A stretch of 36,524 bases of DNA from an uncultured Erysipelotrichaceae bacterium (GTDB lineage: Bacteria; Bacillota_I; Bacilli_A; RF39; UBA660). The stretch covers positions 1 through 36,524 of the forward strand of contig CADBCT010000004.1 of NCBI GenBank assembly GCA_902793315.1, read 5' to 3'. Positions 241-35,798 of the stretch are shown here, piece after piece; the first letter of the stretch is position 1; every line of letters starts with the position of its first letter. The position numbers were made by a program, and so were the translations under genes. Under the pieces are notes generated by a model that saw only the letters and a program-made list of their open reading frames with translations, made no database searches and had not been told where the DNA came from.

Positions 241-561
241 ATGTATGATCAATATTTAATACCAGCTAATACTAAAAGAGGACAATTGATATTAGGATGG
301 TTTAGAAAGTTTGATTTAATATTATTTAGTTCAGGAATACTAGTTTCACTTGTATTACTCGCATTCCTTCAATTTGATGATATTATATCTGTTATTATTG
401 GTTTGGCACCTGCGCTTATTACTGGTTTTTTAGTAATGCCGGTTCCAAACTATCATAATATGTTAAATGTAATAGTGGAAGCTTATGAATTTTTGACTAA
501 TCGTCAAAAGTATAGATGGAAAGGTTGGTGTTATAAAAGTGGCGACAAAAAAAGGAAGTAG
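241..561 (+). CDS. PrgI family membrane protein (VirB3-like T4SS component)
   Basis: 106 residues with two hydrophobic segments, about residues 27-47 and 50-68, then a conserved-looking tail with P-x-Y-H-N and ending in YRWKGWCY. That pattern (two helices, a Pro-Asn-His turn, then the aromatic/basic R-Y-x-W-x-G-W motif) is typical of the PrgI family found beside VirB4 in Gram-positive conjugation systems, where it is thought to fill the VirB3 role in the membrane channel. A good AAAAGGAGTG site lies before the ATG. The end of the gene overlaps the start of the next one by 23 bases, which points to coupled translation. Family call is fairly firm; the detailed role is inferred. Confidence 0.75.
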   Translation: MYDQYLIPANTKRGQLILGWFRKFDLILFSSGILVSLVLLAFLQFDDIISVIIGLAPALITGFLVMPVPNYHNMLNVIVEAYEFLTNRQKYRWKGWCYKSGDKKRK

Positions 562-1096
562 TGGTAGTGGCTTTACAGAAGATTGGTTACCTGTAAGAGC
601 CATTCAAAATAATATGATTATCACTAAAGATAATTATAAAGTTAGCGGTGTAAAAATTGCTCCTAGAAATATCTTTATTTTGGACCCTGATACTCAAAAT
701 AATATTTTGATAGGACTTAGAAATTTTTACAATACAATTGATTATGAATTCTGGTTAGTTGTTGCAGATAGACCAGTTGATATTTCTGTTTATATGTCAC
801 AAATGCAATTATTGCTTAATGAAACTAATTCACCAGCTATTCGTAAATTAATTATGCAAGATATTGATAAGGGTGAAACATTTATTAGTAATAATATTGT
901 TGATACTGAATATTACTTTATGTTTAGAAGTAAAAATGCTGATGAAGTTCAAAAGAGAGTTCGTCAAATGATTAATGGACTTGCTACTTGTGGACTTAAT
1001 GCAGCACAAATTAGTAATTCTGATTTAAGATTAATTCTAGAGAATTTCTTAAATGGTGGTAATACTACTGAGTTTGGAACGGTGATGCCTGTATGA
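539..1096 (+). CDS. TraC-like N-terminal part of a split VirB4
   Basis: 185 residues, starting at a GTG inside the end of the PrgI gene. The segment around residues 16-50 (DWLPVRAI, ITKDNYKV, APRNIFIL) resembles the N-terminal accessory region of Gram-positive VirB4/TraE ATPases; there is no P-loop here. The gene ends in TGA within an ATGA overlap with the next gene, which carries the ATPase domain. Together the two products are about 784 residues, near a full VirB4, so this looks like a VirB4 carried on two coupled genes. Small stand-alone TraC-like proteins between PrgI and VirB4 are also known, so a natural split is more likely than a sequencing frameshift. This is the only TGA stop in the window. 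Confidence 0.6.
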   Translation: MATKKGSSGSGFTEDWLPVRAIQNNMIITKDNYKVSGVKIAPRNIFILDPDTQNNILIGLRNFYNTIDYEFWLVVADRPVDISVYMSQMQLLLNETNSPAIRKLIMQDIDKGETFISNNIVDTEYYFMFRSKNADEVQKRVRQMINGLATCGLNAAQISNSDLRLILENFLNGGNTTEFGTVMPV

Positions 1097-2892
1097 GTAC
1101 AAGTTTAAGAGGACAATTGGCACCTAAAGGATTACATTTCAATCATAGTGATTTTGTTATTAGTGATAAATATGCAACTATTTTAACAGTTGTTTCTTAT
1201 CCTAAATACATCATGCCAGGATATTTATCAACACTTACTAATATGTCTGGAATTAAAGTTGTTGTTAAGCATATTCCGGTACCATGGGCCGATATGGCAA
1301 AGATGTTAAATAAACAAGTTGCTGAATTAAAAGAAAGATATCAGAATGAAAGAGATCAAACTCTTCGTGAAAGAATTAGACAAGATGCTGAAAGTTTGGA
1401 ATATTTTACTTCTATGTTAGCAGGATCTCAAGCAAGAATCTTTGATTTTCAAATGCATATTATGATTACTGCTAATACTAAAGAAGAATTAGAATTAAAG
1501 AAATTAAACGTTAAAAACTATCTTGATTCAATGGAATTACGTGCTATTTCTTTAAGATTTGAACAAGAAAAAGTTTTAAAATCAATTATTCCAATTTTCT
1601 CAGAAAAAGATACTCAAGAATTAGAATCAAGAATTGGTACTCCAATTCCTTCAGTTACTATTTCAGCTATGTATCCATTTATCTTTGATAGTATTAAGGA
1701 TCCAGGATTATCTACATTACTTGGAGTTGATTTTTCTGGAGGAGTAATTTTATTCAATCAATTTTTATATAAAATACGTAAAGAAACTAATAGAAATAAT
1801 GCTAATATGATTATTCTAGGTACATCTGGTTCAGGTAAATCTACTGCAGCTAAATTATTACTTAGAACTCATATACGTAATGGATGTCAAATAGTTATAA
1901 TCGATCCTGAAGATGAGTTTAGAGATTTAACTCGTGCTTATGGTGGAGATACTGTTGATATTGGAAAAGGTGGAGAATTTGGACTTATTAATCCCCTTGA
2001 AATAGTTATTGATGCTGATGAAGAAGAAATAAAACAAGGTTTAGGTTATACAGTTTTAACTAGAACTTTACAATTCTTAAAAGCATTTATGAAATACTAT
2101 GATCCTTCAATAGAAGAAGCTGTTTTAACAATGTTTTCAGAAATAGTTCAAGATACATATAGACGTTTTGGAATAGATTTTACTTCTGATTTTTCAAGAT
2201 ATACTTCAGAAGATTATCCAACATTTAGTGATGTATATGCAACTATTAAAGGAAGACTTATGTCTATGACTGAGCAAACTCAAGAAAGAGAAATAATGGA
2301 AAAACTTGAATTAAAAGTTAGACCAATTGTTAATGAATTAAAATTTTATTTTGATGGACATACTACTATCACTAAAGGTAGTGACTTCATGGTATTTAAT
2401 ATTAAAGAATTAATGAATAGTGATTCAACTATTAAAAATGCTTTATTCTTTAGTGTATTAAAGTATGCTTGGGGTCTATGTTTAGACTTCAATGTTGATA
2501 CAGTTTTAATGGTTGACGAAGCACATGTTTTATTAGGAGATAATAATGCTTTAGGAGCTGATTTCTTGGCTCAAGTTCAAAGACGTGCTCGTAAGTATAA
2601 TACTGGTACAGTAATTATTACTCAACAACCAAGTGATTTCTCAGATCCAGCTGTTATTACACAAGGTAAGGCTATTTTTGATAACTCTTCTTATTACCTT
2701 GTAATGGGTCTTAAGAAACAAGCTGTTGAGGATTTATCATTATTAATTGATTTAAATGAAAGTGAAAAAGAAAGTATTAAACATTATTCTCAAGGAGAAG
2801 CTTTGTTTGTTTGTGGACATAGAAGAATGAGAATAAATGTTGCAGTTACACAAGAAGAACTAGATTCCTTCGGTAGTGGAGGAGGATTCTAG
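1093..2892 (+). CDS. VirB4-family T4SS ATPase
   Basis: 599 residues. Residues 1-230 are the VirB4 N-terminal region, with a charged helical stretch at about 75-115. The C-terminal ATPase domain has Walker A GTSGSGKS at 243-250, an IIDPEDEF strand shortly after, Walker B VLMVDEAH with D475/E476, and an ITQQPSDF motif typical of VirB4/TraC-type motors. It would sit at the cytoplasmic face of the channel and power assembly or substrate movement. The start ATG overlaps the preceding stop as ATGA, so translation is coupled. The protein ends in a Gly-rich tail. The family is certain from the motifs; whether the system moves DNA or protein cannot be told from this gene. Confidence 0.9.
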   Translation: MSTSLRGQLAPKGLHFNHSDFVISDKYATILTVVSYPKYIMPGYLSTLTNMSGIKVVVKHIPVPWADMAKMLNKQVAELKERYQNERDQTLRERIRQDAESLEYFTSMLAGSQARIFDFQMHIMITANTKEELELKKLNVKNYLDSMELRAISLRFEQEKVLKSIIPIFSEKDTQELESRIGTPIPSVTISAMYPFIFDSIKDPGLSTLLGVDFSGGVILFNQFLYKIRKETNRNNANMIILGTSGSGKSTAAKLLLRTHIRNGCQIVIIDPEDEFRDLTRAYGGDTVDIGKGGEFGLINPLEIVIDADEEEIKQGLGYTVLTRTLQFLKAFMKYYDPSIEEAVLTMFSEIVQDTYRRFGIDFTSDFSRYTSEDYPTFSDVYATIKGRLMSMTEQTQEREIMEKLELKVRPIVNELKFYFDGHTTITKGSDFMVFNIKELMNSDSTIKNALFFSVLKYAWGLCLDFNVDTVLMVDEAHVLLGDNNALGADFLAQVQRRARKYNTGTVIITQQPSDFSDPAVITQGKAIFDNSSYYLVMGLKKQAVEDLSLLIDLNESEKESIKHYSQGEALFVCGHRRMRINVAVTQEELDSFGSGGGF

Positions 2893-2900
2893 AATAGAAG

Positions 2901-2928
2901 TTAGGTGGTGATGGTTAGGTGGTGATGT
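2901..2928 (+). repeat. Tandem 14-bp duplication of a ribosome binding site
   Basis: TTAGGTGGTGATGG (2901-2914) is followed directly by TTAGGTGGTGATGT (2915-2928), 13 of 14 identical. Each copy carries an AGGTGG ribosome site. The second copy is 7 bases from the GTG start at 2930. The first copy could initiate at ATG 2911 and would make only a four-codon peptide ending at the TGA 2923-2925. It may be a slippage duplication or a small translational control element. Confidence 0.7.
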
Positions 2929-2929
2929 T

Positions 2930-5239
2930 GTGGCATATCAAGCTAATAGAAGAAATGGTAGAAATGATTCTGATAGAGCTGCTAAAGATCAAAGAAATAC
3001 TGAAATGGTACAAAATGCAGCCGATGTTGCACAACATTCAGCCAATCCTTATGCAAAAGCAGCAGGAACAGCAATTAAACTTGGAGATAAAGTAACTGGA
3101 GGAAAAGTTAGTAAAAAGTTAGGTAATGCTTTGAGAAATTCGCCTGCTGAAAAAGTAATGGGATTAGCAGATCGAAGAAATAATAATTCTAGAATTAAGG
3201 ATATAGTACAGAAAAATTTTCTTCGAAGAAATGCTGAAAATCAAAATCAAAATTCAAATGAAAAAGAATCGGGAGGAGAACAGAAAGGTTCTTCTTCTTC
3301 TGATTCTAAACAAGATGAAAAATCAAAAACTGAAAATGGTGAAAATAAAGAAAATAGTGAGAATAAAGAAAGCGGTTCAACAAAACCAAGTGATTTATTA
3401 CCTAAAGTAGGAAATAATAAAAAAGATGGACCCTTGGAAAAAGTTCAAGCAGAAATAAAAAGAATTAAAATGATAATTATTGCTGCTGGAGTAATTTTAG
3501 GCGCCTTGCTTATTGTGATTGTTATAATTGCTGTTATTTCATCAGTGTTAGGTATTCTTGATGATAACAATGATCAACTTGGTTTTAGCAGTAGTACAGG
3601 AAGAAGTACAGGTAATATTACTTATACTGCTACGAGTAAAGAACAGCGAGAATTTTATGAAAGAATAAATGATGTTGAATTAGACTTTTTAGCTAAAGGG
3701 CAACAGATAGATGCCTTAAAAATAGTGGCTGTTTATCAAGTTTTAAAGACAAATGGTGCTAAGATAGACTATGATTCTATGTCTGAAAGTGATATTAGAG
3801 ATATAGCTAATGCTATGTTAAATGGTGGTATTTATGACGAAGAAACATTTAAGAACAATTTAAAAAATAATATCTTTCCTAAATATTTACCATCTTCATC
3901 ACAAAAGAGTCGTGAAGTAATGGCTGATAGTGTTATAAAAAAAGATAGTGATTATTATGCTTTTATAGGTGAAGAACCAGTAAATATTTATGCTGGATGT
4001 GCTGGACCAAGTACTTGTTCTTACGATATTAAGGGATATTATATTAAAAGTAAAGGTAATGTAACTGAAAATATTCAAGTATCAAATTTATATGTTAGAT
4101 TAATGCAGTGTGGTACTGCTAATGGTCATAATTATGGTGGTACTTTTGGAAAACCTCTAGAAGGAGAATCATTGATTCCTTTTGAAACTTATATTTTAGG
4201 TGTAGCTTATCAAGAAATAGGACCTGATTCTCCACCAGAAGCTATCAAAGCACAAATGGTCGCAGCTAGAAGTTATATTTTAGCTAGACATGCTGATATG
4301 GGTGGTTGGAGAACGCTAAAACAAGAATCTAATCAGTGGGTTTTACAAGCTGCTGCTTGTACCCAGGATCAAGTTTTCTGTAATCCTGATAAAGGTTGCT
4401 CTGGAACTAATGGACAATGGGGACAAATTTATAGTGGAACTAGTCATAACAAAGGTTTTTCAAGACAACCATTATCACAGACTTCGCCACTTCGTACTTA
4501 TCTAAACCAAACTAGTGGAGAAGTACTTACTAATGATAAAGGTTATATAATTTACAGTGGTTATACTCAAACAGAACAAAATAAAATGATATCATTAGCT
4601 AAACAAGGTTTAACTTATAAGCAAATACTTTTGCAAGTATATAATCAAGGAAATAGAAATTATGGAGCAACTGATGTTAAAAAAGCATCTTGTACTGCAG
4701 GAGCTATGACTAATTGCGGATCAGCTTCCTTTGGAGCTTTTGCCAATTGGAAACAAGCTGGTCAACCTTGGTCTAATGTTAAAATGGGTAATAGTGGCAG
4801 AACCATTGGACAAATAGGTTGCTTAGTTACTTCTGTTGCAATGTTAATTGCTAAGAGTGGAGTACAAACAAGTGTACCTAACTTTAATCCTGGTACTTTT
4901 GTCCAATTTTTAAATAATAATGGTGGATTTGATGGTGATGGAAACTTATCATATGCACCAATCAGTAAAGCAGCACCATCATTTAGATGGGTTAATCAAA
5001 TAGACTTACGAGGAATGAGTCGAGAACAAAAACTTAATACAATTAGAAATTATCAAAGTCAAGGATATTTTATGGCTGCTGAAGTATCAACTAGTGGTCA
5101 ACACTGGGTTGCTATTGATACTGTAAATGGCAATTCCATTAAAGTAATGGATCCAGCTACTAATATTACTGACTTATGGGGTAGTGGTAAATATACTCCT
5201 CAAAGTACAAAAACATTGAATTTATTTAAGGTTGGTTAG
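2930..5239 (+). CDS. Membrane-anchored cell-wall protein with SpoIID-like and C39-like peptidase domains
   Basis: 769 residues, GTG start chosen because AGGTGG lies 7 bases before it. Residues 1-175 are hydrophilic, with an Asn/Ser/Lys/Glu-rich disordered stretch at about 100-155. One membrane helix lies at about 180-207. Outside the membrane, residues about 390-540 form a SpoIID/LytB-like domain: PFETYILGV at 417, E429 in the place of the SpoIID catalytic Glu, then AIKAQMVAARSYILA. The C-terminal domain (about 600-769) resembles the papain-like C39_2 family, with C631 (IGCLVTSVAML), H725 (GQHWVAID) and D741. SpoIID proteins cleave glycan strands and C39-type domains cut peptides, so this looks like the wall-opening enzyme of the T4SS (VirB1/PrgK/CwlT role), with an unusual domain pair. 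Domains are well supported; the role is inferred from context. Confidence 0.8.
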   Translation: MAYQANRRNGRNDSDRAAKDQRNTEMVQNAADVAQHSANPYAKAAGTAIKLGDKVTGGKVSKKLGNALRNSPAEKVMGLADRRNNNSRIKDIVQKNFLRRNAENQNQNSNEKESGGEQKGSSSSDSKQDEKSKTENGENKENSENKESGSTKPSDLLPKVGNNKKDGPLEKVQAEIKRIKMIIIAAGVILGALLIVIVIIAVISSVLGILDDNNDQLGFSSSTGRSTGNITYTATSKEQREFYERINDVELDFLAKGQQIDALKIVAVYQVLKTNGAKIDYDSMSESDIRDIANAMLNGGIYDEETFKNNLKNNIFPKYLPSSSQKSREVMADSVIKKDSDYYAFIGEEPVNIYAGCAGPSTCSYDIKGYYIKSKGNVTENIQVSNLYVRLMQCGTANGHNYGGTFGKPLEGESLIPFETYILGVAYQEIGPDSPPEAIKAQMVAARSYILARHADMGGWRTLKQESNQWVLQAAACTQDQVFCNPDKGCSGTNGQWGQIYSGTSHNKGFSRQPLSQTSPLRTYLNQTSGEVLTNDKGYIIYSGYTQTEQNKMISLAKQGLTYKQILLQVYNQGNRNYGATDVKKASCTAGAMTNCGSASFGAFANWKQAGQPWSNVKMGNSGRTIGQIGCLVTSVAMLIAKSGVQTSVPNFNPGTFVQFLNNNGGFDGDGNLSYAPISKAAPSFRWVNQIDLRGMSREQKLNTIRNYQSQGYFMAAEVSTSGQHWVAIDTVNGNSIKVMDPATNITDLWGSGKYTPQSTKTLNLFKVG

Positions 5240-5247
5240 GTGAAATT

Positions 5248-6021
5248 ATGAAAAAAATATATGTATTTTTAATAGTTTTAGTATTAGGATTTGGTATTGT
5301 AATGTTTCTCTTATATGGGGTAGATTCTATAAAGAGAGAAAAATATGAAACAGCTCTAGTTGTTGGTGATAATACCACTTGGATTTATCAAAAAAACAAA
5401 TGGATGCGTGTTGAGGATAATGAAAAATATGCTGAATTGAATTGGCAAAAATACCATGTTTTTGAAGGCAATAAAAATATAGGTTCTTATAATTTATGGC
5501 ACGATGATATTTGGTATATTTTTGATGATGATAAAAATGCTATTATGACTAATGATGTTTGGTATGCTTATAAGTCGAATTATGATATAGAAGTAACAGA
5601 TTTTATTAAAGAAGATTTAACTAATGATGAATATGTTAATGCAGTTTTATCTGAAAAAGGGTTACCTTTAGAAAATGATTATACGACAGCTTATAAAACT
5701 AGTGTTGATATAGATAGAGATGGAATGGAAGAAAATTTCTATGTTATCAGTAATGTTTTTAGTATGGGTAAGCATCCCAATAGAATATTTTCATTTGTGT
5801 TTATGGTAAAGAATGAACAAATATATTATTTATATGATGATGTTAGGGATTACAAGGCTTATGCTGGTTGTGTACCTAATATAATAACTTTTATAGATGC
5901 TGATGATGATAAAGTCGATGAATTAATAGTTAGTTGTGATCAATATAGTAATTTAGGTAGAATTGATATGCTATATAATTTTGATGGAGAGGAATTTAAA
6001 ATATTAATTTCTAATCAATAA
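5248..6021 (+). CDS. Membrane-anchored extracytoplasmic protein of unknown function
   Basis: 257 residues. An N-terminal hydrophobic helix (about residues 4-24) follows MKK and has no clear lipobox, so it is a signal anchor or signal peptide. The rest is hydrophilic and Asp/Tyr-rich. Two Asp-rich loops, DIDRDGMEEN (about 153-162) and DADDDKVDEL (about 218-227), look like the calcium-binding loops of FG-GAP/VCBS or EF-hand-like repeats. It begins 8 bases after the SpoIID/C39 gene with AGGTGA in front, so it is in the same operon. There is no recognisable enzyme motif. It could be an accessory or surface factor of the secretion apparatus, but that is only context. Confidence 0.65.
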   Translation: MKKIYVFLIVLVLGFGIVMFLLYGVDSIKREKYETALVVGDNTTWIYQKNKWMRVEDNEKYAELNWQKYHVFEGNKNIGSYNLWHDDIWYIFDDDKNAIMTNDVWYAYKSNYDIEVTDFIKEDLTNDEYVNAVLSEKGLPLENDYTTAYKTSVDIDRDGMEENFYVISNVFSMGKHPNRIFSFVFMVKNEQIYYLYDDVRDYKAYAGCVPNIITFIDADDDKVDELIVSCDQYSNLGRIDMLYNFDGEEFKILISNQ

Positions 6022-6024
6022 ATA

Positions 6025-6053
6025 ATGACAGTTTTCAAAAGTTAAGTTATAAT
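6025..6053 (+). promoter_or_regulatory. Sigma-A promoter for the VirD4 gene
   Basis: ATGACA (6025-6030), a 17-base spacer and a perfect TATAAT (6048-6053), placed 25 bases before the ATG of the coupling-protein gene. It implies that virD4 and the next gene can be transcribed apart from the upstream channel genes. Confidence 0.75.
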
Positions 6054-6077
6054 ATATGAGAGAAAGAAGGGAATAGT

Positions 6078-8381
6078 ATGAAGTTTAGATTTAGAGCAGA
6101 TCCTGAAGATTTAACTATTTTTGGTGTTTTTGCTGGATTTTTGTTTTTTATAGTTGCTTTAATAGTGTCTAATTTACATGTAATGTCTTCAGAAGGACAT
6201 TTAGCTGGAATAAATCCTTTTCCTGCTCTTGCTCCAGATATGATTTTATCAACAATTGCTTTATATTTATTAGTATTATTAGGATTGTTTGCTAGTGTTA
6301 GCTCAATGTTCTTTGAAAGAGAAGAAGGTATTGGAATTAGAGCAGCTAGAAAAGATAAAGGATATTCTAGATGGGCAAAAGCCAAAGAAATACAGGAAGA
6401 ATTAGAACGTGTTGAAATTAATATGAAAAGTTCTAAAGCAGCTGGAGTTCCATTGATGATTAATGAACAAGAGATGTGGGTTGATAATGGTGAATATCAT
6501 TCATTAGTAATTGGTGCTACTGGTTCAGGTAAAACTCAAACAGTCGTATTACCAATGGTTCATAGTTTAGCTAAAGCTAAAGAATCAATGATTATTACGG
6601 ACCCTAAAGGTGAAATTTATGAAAAGACTTCTAATATGCTTAGAGCTCGTGGATATCAAATCTTATTATTAAATTTCCGTGATCCACAAAATGGTAATGC
6701 TTGGAATCCAATGTCTTTACCATATCAAATGTATAAATCTGGTAATCAAGATAAAGCTATTGAGTTGTTGGATGACTTAGCTTTAAATATCTTATATGAT
6801 GATTCTAATAAGAATGCTGATCCATTCTGGGAAAAGACTTCAGCAGATTATTTTTCTGGAGTGGCACTTGGTTTATTTGAAGACGCTAAGGAAGAAGAAA
6901 TAAATATTAATAGTATTTCTCTTGCTACTACTGTTGGTGAAGAGAAATTTGGTGGATCTACATATATAAAAGAGTATTTTGCTGGAAAAGATCCTAATAG
7001 TGCTGCAGCTATAAATGCTTCAAGTACTATTATGGCTCCTAGTGAAACTAAAGGTAGTATCTTATCAGTATTTAAGCAAAAAGTTAAATTATTTGCTTCT
7101 CGTGAAAATTTATCTGAAATGTTAAGTCATAGTGATATTGATTTAGAGAGTATTGGAGAAAAGCCAACTGCTGTCTTTATCGTTATTCAAGATGAAAAGA
7201 AAACATATCACTCATTAGTAACAATTTTATTAAAACAAATTTATGAAACATTAATTAGAGTAGCTCAAAGACATGGTGGAAAATTACCAGTTAGAACTAA
7301 TTTCTTACTTGATGAGTTTGCTAATATGCCGCCATTAAAAGATGTTACAACAATGATTACTGCTGCTCGTTCAAGAGCAATTAGATTTACAATGATTATT
7401 CAGAACTTTGCTCAATTAGATGATGTATATGGTAAAGAAGAAGCTGAAACAATCAGAGGTAACTGTGGTAATATTATTTATTTGATTACGACAGAATTAA
7501 AAGCCTTAGAAGAAATATCTAAGATGTGTGGTGAAGAAAAGTCTAAGAAAGATGATAAGACAGCTTCAACACCATTAGTTACAGTTTCTGATTTACAAAG
7601 AATGAAACAATTTGAAGTAATTATCCTACGTATGAGAAAACAACCATTTAAAACAAAGTTTACTCCGTATTTTAAACTTAACTGGGGAGCTAAATATCCA
7701 CCAGCTAAGTATCCTAGTCGTAAAAAAGAAATAGTTCATACTTTTGATATAAAAGAATATGTAAAAAATCAAAAGAAGAAGAAATTATTGGAAATGATGA
7801 ATGCAGCTGATGAACATGATAATGAAACTGCGGGTGGAGGAATGCTTGGTAATCCTTTTGCTGAAAAGTTGCCACCAGAATTACGTGCAATTAGGGAGCA
7901 AAATCGTGAACGTGAAGTACCTCCTGAAATTCCAACTTTCTTACGCAGACAACCTGTAGTTGAGGAAGAAGATGTAAAGGTACCTTCTAAAGCATCTAGA
8001 ATACCTGATTTTGAAACTTTTAAGAGAGAAATGGAATCTACTGATATTGGATTTAATCCATTTAAAACAGCAGAACCTAGTGTAGAAAAAGTAGAAGAAG
8101 ATAATTCAGATGATTTAGGTTTTGATGTTGATGAATTGGTTAAAAAGATTGATGCTAAAATTGCTGAACTTGAAGCTGAAGAAAAAAGAGCTAAAGAAGA
8201 GGAAAAGAAAGAAGAGAATAGCAATATTGAAAAGCTTGATACCAATATTGAATTACCTAAAGAAGAAAAAAATAGTATTGAAGAGATTACTGAACAAAAG
8301 GAACCTAAGCCTTCAGCTAATTTGAGCTTAGATGATGAAACTGAAGAAGATGATTTCTTTGATGATTTCTTTGATAACTAG
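6078..8381 (+). CDS. VirD4/TraG-type coupling ATPase
   Basis: 767 residues. Two N-terminal membrane helices (about 12-34 and 54-78) precede the ATPase domain. Walker A GATGSGKT is at 146-153, followed by MIITDPKGEIYEK, which is typical of TraG/VirD4. Walker B is FLLDEF with D412/E413, followed by ANMPPL. IRGNCGNIIYL further on is also characteristic. The protein would recruit substrates to the type IV channel. After about residue 560 there is a long, very acidic and Lys/Glu-rich tail with coiled-coil character, ending in EEDDFFDDFFDN. Family VirD4 proteins often carry variable C-terminal extensions that bind substrates. It has its own promoter and an AGAAGGG ribosome site. Family call is firm. 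Confidence 0.92.
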   Translation: MKFRFRADPEDLTIFGVFAGFLFFIVALIVSNLHVMSSEGHLAGINPFPALAPDMILSTIALYLLVLLGLFASVSSMFFEREEGIGIRAARKDKGYSRWAKAKEIQEELERVEINMKSSKAAGVPLMINEQEMWVDNGEYHSLVIGATGSGKTQTVVLPMVHSLAKAKESMIITDPKGEIYEKTSNMLRARGYQILLLNFRDPQNGNAWNPMSLPYQMYKSGNQDKAIELLDDLALNILYDDSNKNADPFWEKTSADYFSGVALGLFEDAKEEEININSISLATTVGEEKFGGSTYIKEYFAGKDPNSAAAINASSTIMAPSETKGSILSVFKQKVKLFASRENLSEMLSHSDIDLESIGEKPTAVFIVIQDEKKTYHSLVTILLKQIYETLIRVAQRHGGKLPVRTNFLLDEFANMPPLKDVTTMITAARSRAIRFTMIIQNFAQLDDVYGKEEAETIRGNCGNIIYLITTELKALEEISKMCGEEKSKKDDKTASTPLVTVSDLQRMKQFEVIILRMRKQPFKTKFTPYFKLNWGAKYPPAKYPSRKKEIVHTFDIKEYVKNQKKKKLLEMMNAADEHDNETAGGGMLGNPFAEKLPPELRAIREQNREREVPPEIPTFLRRQPVVEEEDVKVPSKASRIPDFETFKREMESTDIGFNPFKTAEPSVEKVEEDNSDDLGFDVDELVKKIDAKIAELEAEEKRAKEEEKKEENSNIEKLDTNIELPKEEKNSIEEITEQKEPKPSANLSLDDETEEDDFFDDFFDN

Positions 8382-8395
8382 AAAGGAGATAAATC

Positions 8396-9631
8396 ATGAG
8401 TTTGAAAGATAAGTTAGATAATGATACTAAAGATGAAACAGAAGAAGTTGTAGAAGATGATGATTTACAATTAAGTGAAGATGATCTTATAGATGATAAA
8501 AACTATTCTAGTGCTACTGCTGCTAGAAGTAAAATGTTTAGATTTGTAGGAATAATTTTATTAATTACTATCTTATTATTAGTTATTTTATTTGTTATTT
8601 CTAATATGTCACCTAAGGTATATAAGTATTCTGATATAGAAACAATTTTAAAGAATGCTGCTAAAGGTTATTTTAAAGATCATCCTGAAAGTTTACCTCA
8701 AAATGAAGGAAGTATTATTGAAATAGATTCAAGTAACTTGGTTGCTGAAGGTAGAATGAAAGAATTGTCTGAATATACTGAAGAAGGAGTTACTTGTTCT
8801 GGTACTGTTCAAGTTGAACTAGCTGGTGGTGAATATTTATATACTCCATATTTAAATTGTGGAGATAATTATGCTACTGTAGAGTTTTATAAAAAGCTAA
8901 TTGATGGTGAAAATATAGTAACTGCTGGTTATGGTTTATATGCAAGTAATGGTAGTTATGTATATCGAGGAGAAGATGTTAATAATTATGTTCAATTAGA
9001 TAATAATTTATGGAGAATTGTTAAAATAACTTCTACTAATAACATCGTTTTAATATCTAATGATCGAATTGGATATGGTAATGAATGGGATAACCGTTAT
9101 AATGAGAAAAAGGGTTATGAAGCAGGTATTAATCAATATAGTGTTAGTCGTATACATGATTATTTAAATACTATTTATGATAAACCTAATACTGAAGAAG
9201 CTGATGATGAAAATCCTCTTTCAAAAAAAGATAAGACAAGAATGGTAGCTTTTGATTTATGTGTAGGTAAACGTAGTCAAAAGAGTGAAGGAAAAGATAA
9301 TTCAATTGAATGTGCTCAAAAAGTACCAAATCAAAAATTAGGATTACTAACAGTAGCTGAATATATGAATGCTAGTTTAGATCCAAATTGTAAAATGACT
9401 ATTTCTAAAACTTGTAAGAATTATAATTATTTATCAAAAGTTACAGGTTGGTGGTTAGCTACTGCTGATAAAGATGATAGTTCACAAGTATATCAAATTA
9501 ATCAAAGTGGAAAAATAGTAAGTGCTGTTGCTTCAAATTATATTGGAGTAAGACCAGTTATCTACTTAAATAGTAAAGTTTTATATAAAAGTGGAAAAGG
9601 TACTTTAGAAAAGCCATATAAAATAAGATAG
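8396..9631 (+). CDS. Anchored surface protein with a DUF6273-like domain, T4SS-linked
   Basis: 411 residues. An acidic cytoplasmic segment (1-45) is followed by one membrane helix (about 47-69). Residues 75-165 look like a pilin-type neck: a SDIETILKNAAKGYF helix followed by a small domain with Cys in GVTCSGTV and NCGDNYAT. The C-terminal half has the pattern LWRIVKI, VLISNDRIGYG, WWLATADKDD, then GVRPVIYLNS, which matches my recollection of DUF6273-type domains of Firmicutes surface proteins. It starts 14 bases after virD4 behind AAAGGAGAT and is followed by a terminator, so it closes the secretion operon. A structural surface subunit or substrate is possible. The function is unknown. Confidence 0.65.
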   Translation: MSLKDKLDNDTKDETEEVVEDDDLQLSEDDLIDDKNYSSATAARSKMFRFVGIILLITILLLVILFVISNMSPKVYKYSDIETILKNAAKGYFKDHPESLPQNEGSIIEIDSSNLVAEGRMKELSEYTEEGVTCSGTVQVELAGGEYLYTPYLNCGDNYATVEFYKKLIDGENIVTAGYGLYASNGSYVYRGEDVNNYVQLDNNLWRIVKITSTNNIVLISNDRIGYGNEWDNRYNEKKGYEAGINQYSVSRIHDYLNTIYDKPNTEEADDENPLSKKDKTRMVAFDLCVGKRSQKSEGKDNSIECAQKVPNQKLGLLTVAEYMNASLDPNCKMTISKTCKNYNYLSKVTGWWLATADKDDSSQVYQINQSGKIVSAVASNYIGVRPVIYLNSKVLYKSGKGTLEKPYKIR

Positions 9632-31543: not shown

Positions 31544-31554
31544 AATGATTGTTA

Positions 31555-31582
31555 TTGACAATTAGCCAAAATAGTATATAAT
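31555..31582 (+). promoter_or_regulatory. Consensus sigma-A promoter of the long noncoding RNA
   Basis: Perfect TTGACA (31555-31560), 16 bases, perfect TATAAT (31577-31582). It is the best promoter in the window and precedes a 650-base stretch with no gene. Confidence 0.85.
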
Positions 31583-31588
31583 TATTGT

Positions 31589-32240
31589 ATAAACTAGTAT
31601 TGTGTAGGATTCTAAAATAATAAACGGAAAGTTCTTTATGTAATTAGAATTACTATTATTAAAGTTCAATTGTTAGTTTAGATTATGTGACATTTCATAA
31701 TCATTAATTGTAATTATTTATTTAATTAGGATTCTTGATTATTGATGATAATGTAATTTATATTACTATTGGCATATTTTAATAAAGATAATTATAATTT
31801 TTAATTTACTTTCTAATAAAATTATTTGTTTCTATACATTCTACAGATTATAAAAAATTATCAAGACTAGTTTTTTGTAATTTCTTTGGAGAAAGAAAAC
31901 TTCAGAATAAGTTATATATAATTACTGATAATAATTATATATATATAAAACTCGGATTTAATGTCTTATGTAATATTCTAATAGACTTTTGCTATGATTA
32001 ATCGGAGAAATTGAGGTTAATGATTTAGGCAAAAAAAGCTTATTCACTATTAGAGAAAGAAATTATATTGGGAAAGGAAAATCCCAACAATGATAATGGA
32101 TAAAATAAGCAACGATTTATTGGACTCTATCTGAACAAACCAATAATATTAGTTTTTATCAGAAATTAGTATTATCTACAAAATATATTAGTCATATATT
32201 TTTGAAAATATGAAAGCATCGTTGATTTCATATTTTTTTT
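31589..32240 (+). ncRNA. Large structured noncoding RNA (about 650 nt, unassigned)
   Basis: No coding frame spans this region; stops are dense in all six frames. It starts behind a consensus promoter and ends in a terminator (AATATGAAA / TTTCATATT, 32207-32234, then T residues). Hairpins seen by eye: 31640-31653, 31681-31702, 31753-31766, 31881-31898 (TTTCTTT/AAAGAAA), 31913-31943 (12-bp stem, loop CTGATAA), 31997-32021, 32068-32087 (TTGGGA/TCCCAA) and 32117-32146 (TTATTGG/CCAATAA). Longer pairings: AAACTAG (31591) with CTAGTTT (31867), and GCTTATT (32038) with AATAAGC (32104). The word TAGGATTCT occurs twice (31605, 31727). RNase P and tmRNA signatures were not found. ROOL, GOLLD and OLE are families of similar size that should be compared. 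Confidence 0.7.
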
Positions 32241-32242
32241 GT

Positions 32243-32272
32243 AAAAAAACACACTTTATAGTGTGTTTTTAT
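32243..32272. terminator. Bidirectional terminator between the ncRNA and the FtsW/RodA gene
   Basis: 11-bp perfect stem AAAAACACACT / AGTGTGTTTTT with loop TTAT. It serves the minus-strand gene and backs up the ncRNA terminator. It overlaps the stop codon of the former. Confidence 0.85.
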
Positions 32273-34325: not shown

Positions 34326-34350
34326 AATATAAGAATAGTAGGTGGTTATA

Positions 34351-34854
34351 ATGGCAGAAGTAGATTGGATTACTTGGAAAACAGATCCTAAGGAATTAAT
34401 AGATAAAGAAAAAATAGAATCAAATTTAAATAATAAAACTACTGAAATTAATAGTATTATGGATAATCTTTCAAATAGTTTAAAATTAGAAGTAGAAAAA
34501 GGTGGATTAAATAAGGAGTCATTACATATTAATGGAGAAACTCCAGGTAATGAAGTAGCTAATAAAATTTTAAATAAGATTGAAGTAATTAAAAATATAA
34601 ATACTAAACTAAATAATAAGATTATGGATCAAGCTAATAAACAAAAACAAGTTGAAAAAGAACAATTAATCACGGCTATTGAAGAAAAGGTAATTGAACA
34701 AGAAAAGATATTAGAAAATACTAAGGCATTAAGAGACAGATTAACTGCTAACAATGGTTTAATTAGTAGTAATGAAGTAGAAAGCATTATACATACTACA
34801 GAAGAAAAAATTACTATGTTGAAAGAGCGCTTAGAAAGAGCTAAAGCAATTTAG
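34351..34854 (+). CDS. Helical protein of unknown function, first of a pair
   Basis: 167 residues from ATG 34351 with AGGTGG ahead; an in-frame GTG at 34342 is inside that site. The N-terminus (VDWITWKTDPKELIDKEKIES) has two Trp close together, and the rest is charged amphipathic helix with coiled-coil potential (about 85-165). There is no signal or membrane segment. It begins 9 bases before the next, also helical, gene; the two are clearly one operon. Small helical partner proteins with such traits are seen beside LXG/WXG100 secretion substrates, but the resemblance is only general. Confidence 0.6.
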   Translation: MAEVDWITWKTDPKELIDKEKIESNLNNKTTEINSIMDNLSNSLKLEVEKGGLNKESLHINGETPGNEVANKILNKIEVIKNINTKLNNKIMDQANKQKQVEKEQLITAIEEKVIEQEKILENTKALRDRLTANNGLISSNEVESIIHTTEEKITMLKERLERAKAI

Positions 34855-34863
34855 GAGGGCTAT

Positions 34864-35538
34864 ATGAATAATCAAAACTCTGTAGACTTAGAAAAATTAA
34901 CGAATAGTTTAAAAGTAGTAGAGGTAGCTAACGATAATTTAAATAATATGAGTCTTTCTAATATTATTATGGATATTGATAGTGACTTAACTAAGTGGAA
35001 TTTTGAACATGGTAATTGTTTCAAAGATTATAAGGAAGTACTTGATTCTTTAATAAAAGAACTAGATAATCTAAAAGTAGAAACAAGTGAATTAGCAAAG
35101 TCTTTAGGAAAGACTATTAGTAATTTTTCTAATATTGAAAAAAATATAAGTTTTAGAAAAACAGATTTATTAAATAATTTAAGTAGTGCTGTTGAAAATA
35201 GTAATGTTAATAAAATACCAGAACCAGTAACTGAAACAGATTCGGGTATCCAGGAACAAGATCCAATTAATACAGTTCCAGTTGGATTAGGAATAGCTGC
35301 TAGTGGAATAGCTGGCTCAGTAGGAGCAGTTATAGTTGATTCAATGATGCCTAGTGAACAGAAAGATGTTATTCCTGACTATGAGGAGCCAACAGAGATA
35401 GTTGAAAAAGTAGAAAAATCAGAAGAATTTGATGAGTCTATTGCTCGAGAAGAAAAATTTGATGATGTTTCACCATATCATGCTGAAAGAAACAAAGAAG
35501 TAATAGATAAATTTTATGATAAAGAAGATAATAATTAA
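34864..35538 (+). CDS. Helical protein with a Gly/Ala-rich hydrophobic segment, second of a pair
   Basis: 224 residues with AGGAGGG before the ATG. Residues 1-120 are helical, with a W-x-x-E-H-G-x-C segment (TKWNFEHGNCF, about 43-53), reminiscent of the helix turn in WXG100/LXG proteins. After an acidic/Pro linker comes a hydrophobic, Gly-rich stretch (VPVGLGIAASGIAGSVGAVIVDSMMP, about 137-162), a possible membrane-inserting glycine zipper. The C-terminal 60 residues are acidic. It may be a surface or secreted protein. No export system of the ESX/T7 type is visible here, and no family is recognised. Confidence 0.6.
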   Translation: MNNQNSVDLEKLTNSLKVVEVANDNLNNMSLSNIIMDIDSDLTKWNFEHGNCFKDYKEVLDSLIKELDNLKVETSELAKSLGKTISNFSNIEKNISFRKTDLLNNLSSAVENSNVNKIPEPVTETDSGIQEQDPINTVPVGLGIAASGIAGSVGAVIVDSMMPSEQKDVIPDYEEPTEIVEKVEKSEEFDESIAREEKFDDVSPYHAERNKEVIDKFYDKEDNN

Positions 35539-35570: not shown

Positions 35571-35576
35571 TACAGA

Positions 35577-35798
35577 CAGATGCAGAGAATCTGAGGAGTA
35601 AGTATTTACTTAATTATAGAGAGTTTCTGGTAGGTGTAAAGAAATATTAAGGAATACCCAAGGTAGCAGAGGAGCATAATTATTGAAATAGTAGTAAATA
35701 ATTCCGGATAATTCCGTTAAAGATATCAAGATTACGTAAGTAATAAATTAAGGTGGTACCACGAGAAATTCGTCCTTTTGATGAGTTTCTCTTTTTTT
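35577..35798 (+). ncRNA. T-box riboswitch (specifier uncertain)
   Basis: The core AAGGTGGTACCACG is at 35750-35763. Stem I features are AGAGAG (35618-35623) and a TTTCT/AGAAA arm with GGTAGGTGTAA loop. Helices GTATT/AATAC and TCTG/CAGA would leave GTA (35663-35665, Val) before a G as the specifier, but AAG or AGC can be argued. The terminator is a 12-bp stem GAGAAATTCGTC / GATGAGTTTCTC (35763-35791) and seven T residues. It controls the HD-domain gene and whatever follows it. Confidence 0.85.

Follow-up and report, generated by a model that had tools for sequence, protein, structure and literature searches.

A predicted free-standing structured RNA composed of two related modules in a family of uncultured gut Bacilli

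The PGK family of Rfam (RF03040), whose name implies a position upstream of the phosphoglycerate kinase gene, is the described RNA that most resembles the locus analyzed here, and we found no account of it in the open-access collection that we searched. Other relevant systems are the large bacterial RNAs OLE, ROOL, and GOLLD, which form homo-oligomers via kissing loops and intermolecular pairs that show covariation (PMC12286853). OLE pairs one long RNA with itself in an RNA-only homodimer, while ROOL and GOLLD are carried by phages or prophages, often near tRNA islands, and assemble into multimeric cages (PMC12286853). Below, we compare these systems with an RNA of approximately 650 nt predicted in the window, by which we mean the whole stretch of 36,524 nucleotides under study. 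We consider it very probable that this free-standing structured RNA is the single-chain, fused version of a pair of RNAs, RNA1 and RNA2.

A noncoding interval with its own promoter and terminator

The RNA is predicted in a gap of 725 bases (31544-32268) between a glycosyltransferase gene on the plus strand and an FtsW/RodA gene on the minus strand. The preliminary description had found no coding frame across this gap, and indeed the longest ORF within 31589-32240 is 29 amino acids long, compared with a mean of 38 in shuffled versions of the same sequence. Its perfect sigma-70-type promoter is likewise confirmed, as TTGACA (31555-31560) and TATAAT (31577-31582), separated by 16 nt, match the consensus at 12 of 12 positions (31555-31582; plus strand, as are all features of the RNA given below). 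A near-consensus promoter (at least 9 of 12) is present at the equivalent site in 52 of 54 homologues versus 13% at random positions, and in most homologues it ends 3 to 10 nt 5' of the first paired strand of the RNA, the 5' strand of helix P1. The strong terminator claimed for the other end corresponds to a hairpin and U-run at 32207-32240, in which a stem (32207-32215/32227-32235) closes a loop of 11 nt and the U-run extends until about 32240. This loop exceeds the range of the terminator scanner, whose only report here is a second terminator-like hairpin that lies between the convergent genes (32245-32270). Promoter, terminator, lack of an ORF, and a minimum free energy of -133.9 kcal/mol (z -7.0; 0 of 20 shuffles equally low) all point to transcription of an RNA of about 650 nt, with predicted ends at 31589 and 32240, that carries RNA1 and RNA2 on one chain.

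A decayed gene or a chance structure in AT-rich DNA might come to mind, since the cores have a GC content of only about 19 to 26% and the 5' insert is of low complexity. We regard this as extremely improbable in view of the folding energy and of covariation far above the controls (see below), and a coding or decayed gene was rejected because no ORF trace exists in 31589-32240.

The locus had also been placed in a chromosomal setting next to spore genes rather than in an obvious prophage. Its neighbors are chromosomal, and the phage, plasmid, and viral collections that we searched contained no matches to the RNA. SpoIIIAH, Germane, and CotZ do lie near the window's copy, but they are not constant neighbors at other loci. 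Elsewhere in the window, a T-box leader (35576-35780; 128 bits) scores above Rfam gathering, two ORFs without a Pfam match (34342-35538) lie beside the CotZ-like gene, and genes at 241-9631 (VirB4-like, VirD4-like, and SpoIID/NlpC-like) resemble, as judged by eye, a module for conjugation or type IV secretion.

Two modules and the pairing between them

In many relatives, the PGK model produces paired matches about 180 to 540 nt apart, which reveals two related modules in the RNA. For the window, an Rfam search at gathering and permissive thresholds returned sub-threshold PGK matches at two places, RNA1 (40.2 bits) and RNA2 (25.1 bits), both below the gathering score of 50.8, plus weak matches to small-RNA families around terminators.

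The RNA1 module (31589-31956), whose core (31850-31956) matches our model R1 and, below threshold, RF03040, consists of P1 with an insert, a helix site, P3, P4, and a conserved AAACUCG (31948-31954; alignment A1). The 5' strand of P1 (AAACUAGU, 31591-31598) forms the 5' end of the RNA, a few nucleotides 3' of the -10 box, and pairs with ACUAGUUU (31866-31873), thereby enclosing the insert, which is variable. Next come the helix site (UGUAAUUUCUUU, 31876-31887), the P3 hairpin (GGAGAAAGAAAACUUC, 31888-31903), with an invariant AGAAAG..AACU core in alignment A1 and with its pairs included in the pair counts, and the 8-bp P4 hairpin (31916-31940), the loop of which (ACUGAUAAU) contains CUGAUAA (31925-31931). 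Compensatory changes, for which the preliminary description had suggested looking among homologues, were found both in an alignment-wide covariation scan and in swap tests, the latter being used for P1 and the inter-module helix because the alignment is too gapped there for the scan, which recovered P4 and its RNA2 counterpart P4', as well as P3'. All 8 pairs of P4 show two-sided changes and the unbiased scan also retrieved it, P3 and P4 together reach a covariation score of 0.747 (0.256 shuffled; at most 0.163 when slid), and P1 scored 7.68 versus 5.61 (sd 0.16) in a swap test of 59 loci. Comparison of homologous sequences thus establishes P1, P3, and P4.

RNA2 (31977-32240; core 32006-32177 matching model R2) is not described in Rfam. 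Its order is P1', helix site, P3', a CAAYGA segment, AAACC, P4' (loop UUUAUCAG), and the terminator, and its core fold is related to that of RNA1 in that both have a closing helix, a purine-rich P3 hairpin, and a large hairpin. P1' joins UCUAAUAG (31977-31984) to CUAUUAGA (32047-32054), with 6.79 versus 5.64 (sd 0.15) in the swap test, above all 3,000 swaps by run length. The helix site (AAAGAAAUUAUA, 32056-32067) is followed by the P3' hairpin UUGGG..CCCAA (32068-32087; loop AAAGGAAAAU), which resembles P3 and shows two-sided changes in 3 of 3 counted pairs. The 12-bp P4' hairpin (32144-32174), with such changes in 12 of 12 pairs, exposes in its loop a complement of the P4 loop, UUAUCAG (32156-32162); P3' and P4' together score 0.841 (0.270 when shuffled, no more than 0.273 when slid). 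Finally, CAACGAU (32110-32116) pairs with AUCGUUG (32218-32224) in the terminator loop, a pseudoknot that gave 6.95 versus 5.99 (sd 0.16; 0 of 3,000 by run length) upon swapping. By the same comparative approach, P1', P3', P4', and this pseudoknot are likewise established.

The helix sites of the two modules form 12 bp in the window, one of them G-U, and are complementary in all 42 loci examined that have both modules. In these loci, the longest Watson-Crick run averages 9.07, versus 6.03 (sd 0.24) with partners swapped between loci, and the helix energy is -9.47 versus -5.51 kcal/mol (sd 0.35; 0 of 5,000), bearing in mind that swap tests reduce the effects of relatedness and do not fully remove them. 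Restricted to the ten fused loci that share the window's type, the test gives -9.17 versus -4.95 kcal/mol (sd 0.74; 0 of 20,000), and restricted to the same-strand split loci -9.21 versus -6.75 (sd 0.34); it was not significant for the seven convergent loci, which are mutually too similar for power. Closely related fused loci contain the compensated pairs UACAAUUUUU/AAGAAUUGUA, CAAACUAUUUUU/AAAAAUAGUUG, and UAUAAUCUUUU/AAAAGAUUAUA. Comparative evidence establishes this helix too. The CUGAUAA/UUAUCAG loop-loop pair is conserved and nearly invariant, so that compensation is visible in one genus only, where the pair covaries.

Could the two modules be independent neighboring RNAs whose complementarity stems from shared ancestry or low complexity? 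RNA1 and RNA2 do resemble each other and the helix segments are AT-rich, but the segments are complementary rather than identical, and compensation is seen even among fused loci that are closely related, making this very unlikely. Under the paired architecture that we prefer, RNA1 and RNA2 would be held together by the helix of about 12 bp between corresponding sites, the CUGAUAA:UUAUCAG loops would provide a second contact, and the terminator loop of RNA2 would dock at a site within RNA2 itself. Equivalent contacts in other lineages might link two RNAs that are transcribed separately, or a short palindromic RNA and a second copy of it.

Split, fused, and short forms across one family

About 70 homologous loci were considered in all: some 62 distinct loci were compared, and seven from other genera of the family were added later. 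The genomes involved are metagenome assemblies. A DNA search of the genomes of 59 relatives found homologues in about ten genomes of the same genus, spanning a large part of the RNA. Searching 84,980 species genomes for a sequence pattern yielded 58 stretches in uncultured assemblies with labels mostly of gut Bacilli; no viral contig contained one. When 296 genomes were sampled across the class, matches were confined to five genera of the window's family. As far as sequence matches indicate, the range is one family of uncultured gut Bacilli, in which the RNA is chromosomal.

RNA1 and RNA2, which are fused in the window, are encoded in most relatives by separate genes, each with its own promoter. 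The initial view of one new RNA of about 650 nt therefore needs amendment: the class is new, but the RNA is made of two related fused halves that are mostly encoded apart. RNA2 can be located downstream of RNA1, upstream of it, or convergent with it, and it mostly has its own promoter in split loci (9 to 12 of 12) but not in fused loci (6 to 9 of 12). Models R1 and R2 both match in 28 of 36 same-genus genomes, with one alone in 2 and neither in 6, figures to be read with the proviso that the modules are mostly adjacent and that incomplete assemblies affect both alike. Some loci from incomplete genomes have no visible partner module. Loci of the RNA occur, among other places, within the rplL-rsmC-rpoB interval, between glycosyltransferase and FtsW genes as in the window, in type VII secretion clusters, and near a small Cys/Gly-rich ORF. 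On the rplL side, for example at L066 and L081, the RNA is adjoined by a pair of small ORFs, of which one reads MGKYNLG... and the other has a YWNG-like motif; neither has a convincing Pfam match.

At several loci, a single short RNA matches R1 and R2 at one and the same place. Its helix site is a palindrome that differs by lineage (TTACAATTGTAA, AACAATTGTT, TTTGCGCAAA, ATAACTAGTTAT, TAATCGATTA), with a mean length of 10.6 nt versus 5.1 nt in shuffled sequence (3.7 nt in split RNA1), and UUAUCAG is found in the RNA's own terminator loop. At L166, both loop partners are altered together, to CUGACA(A)/(U)UGUCAG; here (L166:1200-2100), the short RNA occurs in two tandem copies with differing palindromes and the compensated loop pair. 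Judged from these sequences, short forms can probably homodimerize via the palindrome, although each palindrome may alternatively form a small local hairpin. At L101, L111, L115, L123, L128, L133, and L153, a small Cys/Gly-rich ORF (MFLNRNCGCGCGRQ...) starts about 180 nt past the short-form P3 motif.

The pairing in split and short forms would presumably be intermolecular, and the forms are suggestive of an order from homodimer via heterodimer to fusion. On balance, we lean toward a natural RNA complex that takes three forms across one family (homodimer, heterodimer of related, separately encoded RNAs, and fused chain), having followed a path of duplication, divergence, and fusion as in proteins. 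Should the pairing take place in cells, these bacteria would possess a natural RNA heterodimer with homodimeric and fused forms in relatives, and hence a test case for the evolution of RNA quaternary structure. Conveniently, the split forms make the intermolecular contacts accessible by mixing two short transcripts.

Possible roles and relation to described RNAs

The 92 positions of RF03040 correspond to the P1 3' strand, helix site, P3, and P4 of RNA1, and the P3 and P4 hairpins carry AGAAAGAAAACU and the loop ACUGAUAAU as in that family (alignment A1, pair counts). Eight short-form loci even exceed its gathering score, with 61 to 65 bits. The Rfam model differs in lacking the P1 5' strand, the insert, the 3' UUAUCAG hairpin, and all of RNA2. 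Its P2 helix (CUUAUC/GAUAAG), which has two non-standard pairs in the window, was unsupported in a swap test of 63 loci (p 0.24 by run length, 0.02 by energy), and a regular-expression scan detected a pgk-type motif near only 1 of about 70 loci, at a distance of 4.5 kb.

Rfam types this family Cis-reg, and a leader acting as a sensor that controls a downstream gene would fit the short forms that, in several genomes, precede one small Cys/Gly-rich ORF by about 180 nt. We nevertheless consider such a role improbable, because the loci have their own promoter and terminator, the gene downstream of the window's copy is on the opposite strand, many unrelated genes follow the RNA at other loci, RNA2 can be convergent or upstream, and a pgk gene is so rarely near. 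What had been proposed as a new RNA class does hold insofar as comparative evidence supports a large, structured, free-standing RNA, but about 90 nt of its first half are a diverged PGK copy. On sequence grounds, the window RNA is best filed as a new class that overlaps the fragmentary PGK family. A poorly described 92-nt motif filed as cis-regulatory would thus become part of a larger free-standing RNA system with a partner that Rfam omits.

As to function, strong predicted promoters, structure, and retention across the family argue for a cellular role, and absence from some genomes of the same genus argues against strict essentiality. That the RNA partners EssC secretion clusters, by co-inheritance or as a regulator, is conceivable, if rather doubtful. 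Nearly all genomes of the genus have EssC, and at 5 of 35 same-genus loci, as well as at several loci in other genomes, it is no more than about 5 kb from the RNA. However, most RNA loci are not beside EssC, G003 and G008 have EssC without an RNA match and G021 the RNA without a full EssC, the rplL-rpoB interval may be a mere insertion hot spot, and the small neighboring ORFs lack a convincing WXG100 match. Same-genus genomes usually have one to three EssC-type type VII secretion ATPases, and in the other sampled genera the cut-off was passed in one genome only. Our best guess, a tentative one by analogy, is that the RNA may serve as an OLE-like scaffold for proteins, perhaps linked to the envelope or to type VII secretion.

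A diverged ROOL, GOLLD, or OLE, the preliminary description's other proposal, was not borne out. Given the similar size and the structure, a diverged form of these RNAs or of RNase P, tmRNA, or 6S RNA could be imagined, but it is most unlikely: ROOL, GOLLD, and OLE gave no match up to E=10 with permissive filters and no phage or viral match was found, RNase P, tmRNA, and 6S covariance models likewise had no match at the locus up to E=10, and in nine genomes the housekeeping RNAs are encoded elsewhere (RNase P in 9 of 9, tmRNA with full score in 8 of 9, and 6S candidates in 8 of 9). All six candidates were rejected on these grounds.

The likeness to the described oligomeric RNAs is therefore not one of sequence. 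With ROOL and GOLLD, the RNAs described here share the character of large ornate RNAs with covarying kissing loops, their own oligomeric state being predicted from sequence, whereas they are absent from the phage and viral collections searched. With OLE, they share a similar size and, to judge from complementarity and covariation, a probable resemblance in dimer formation. In contrast to the single homodimeric arrangement of OLE, lineages here would vary between a putative homodimer, a heterodimer, and a fused chain.
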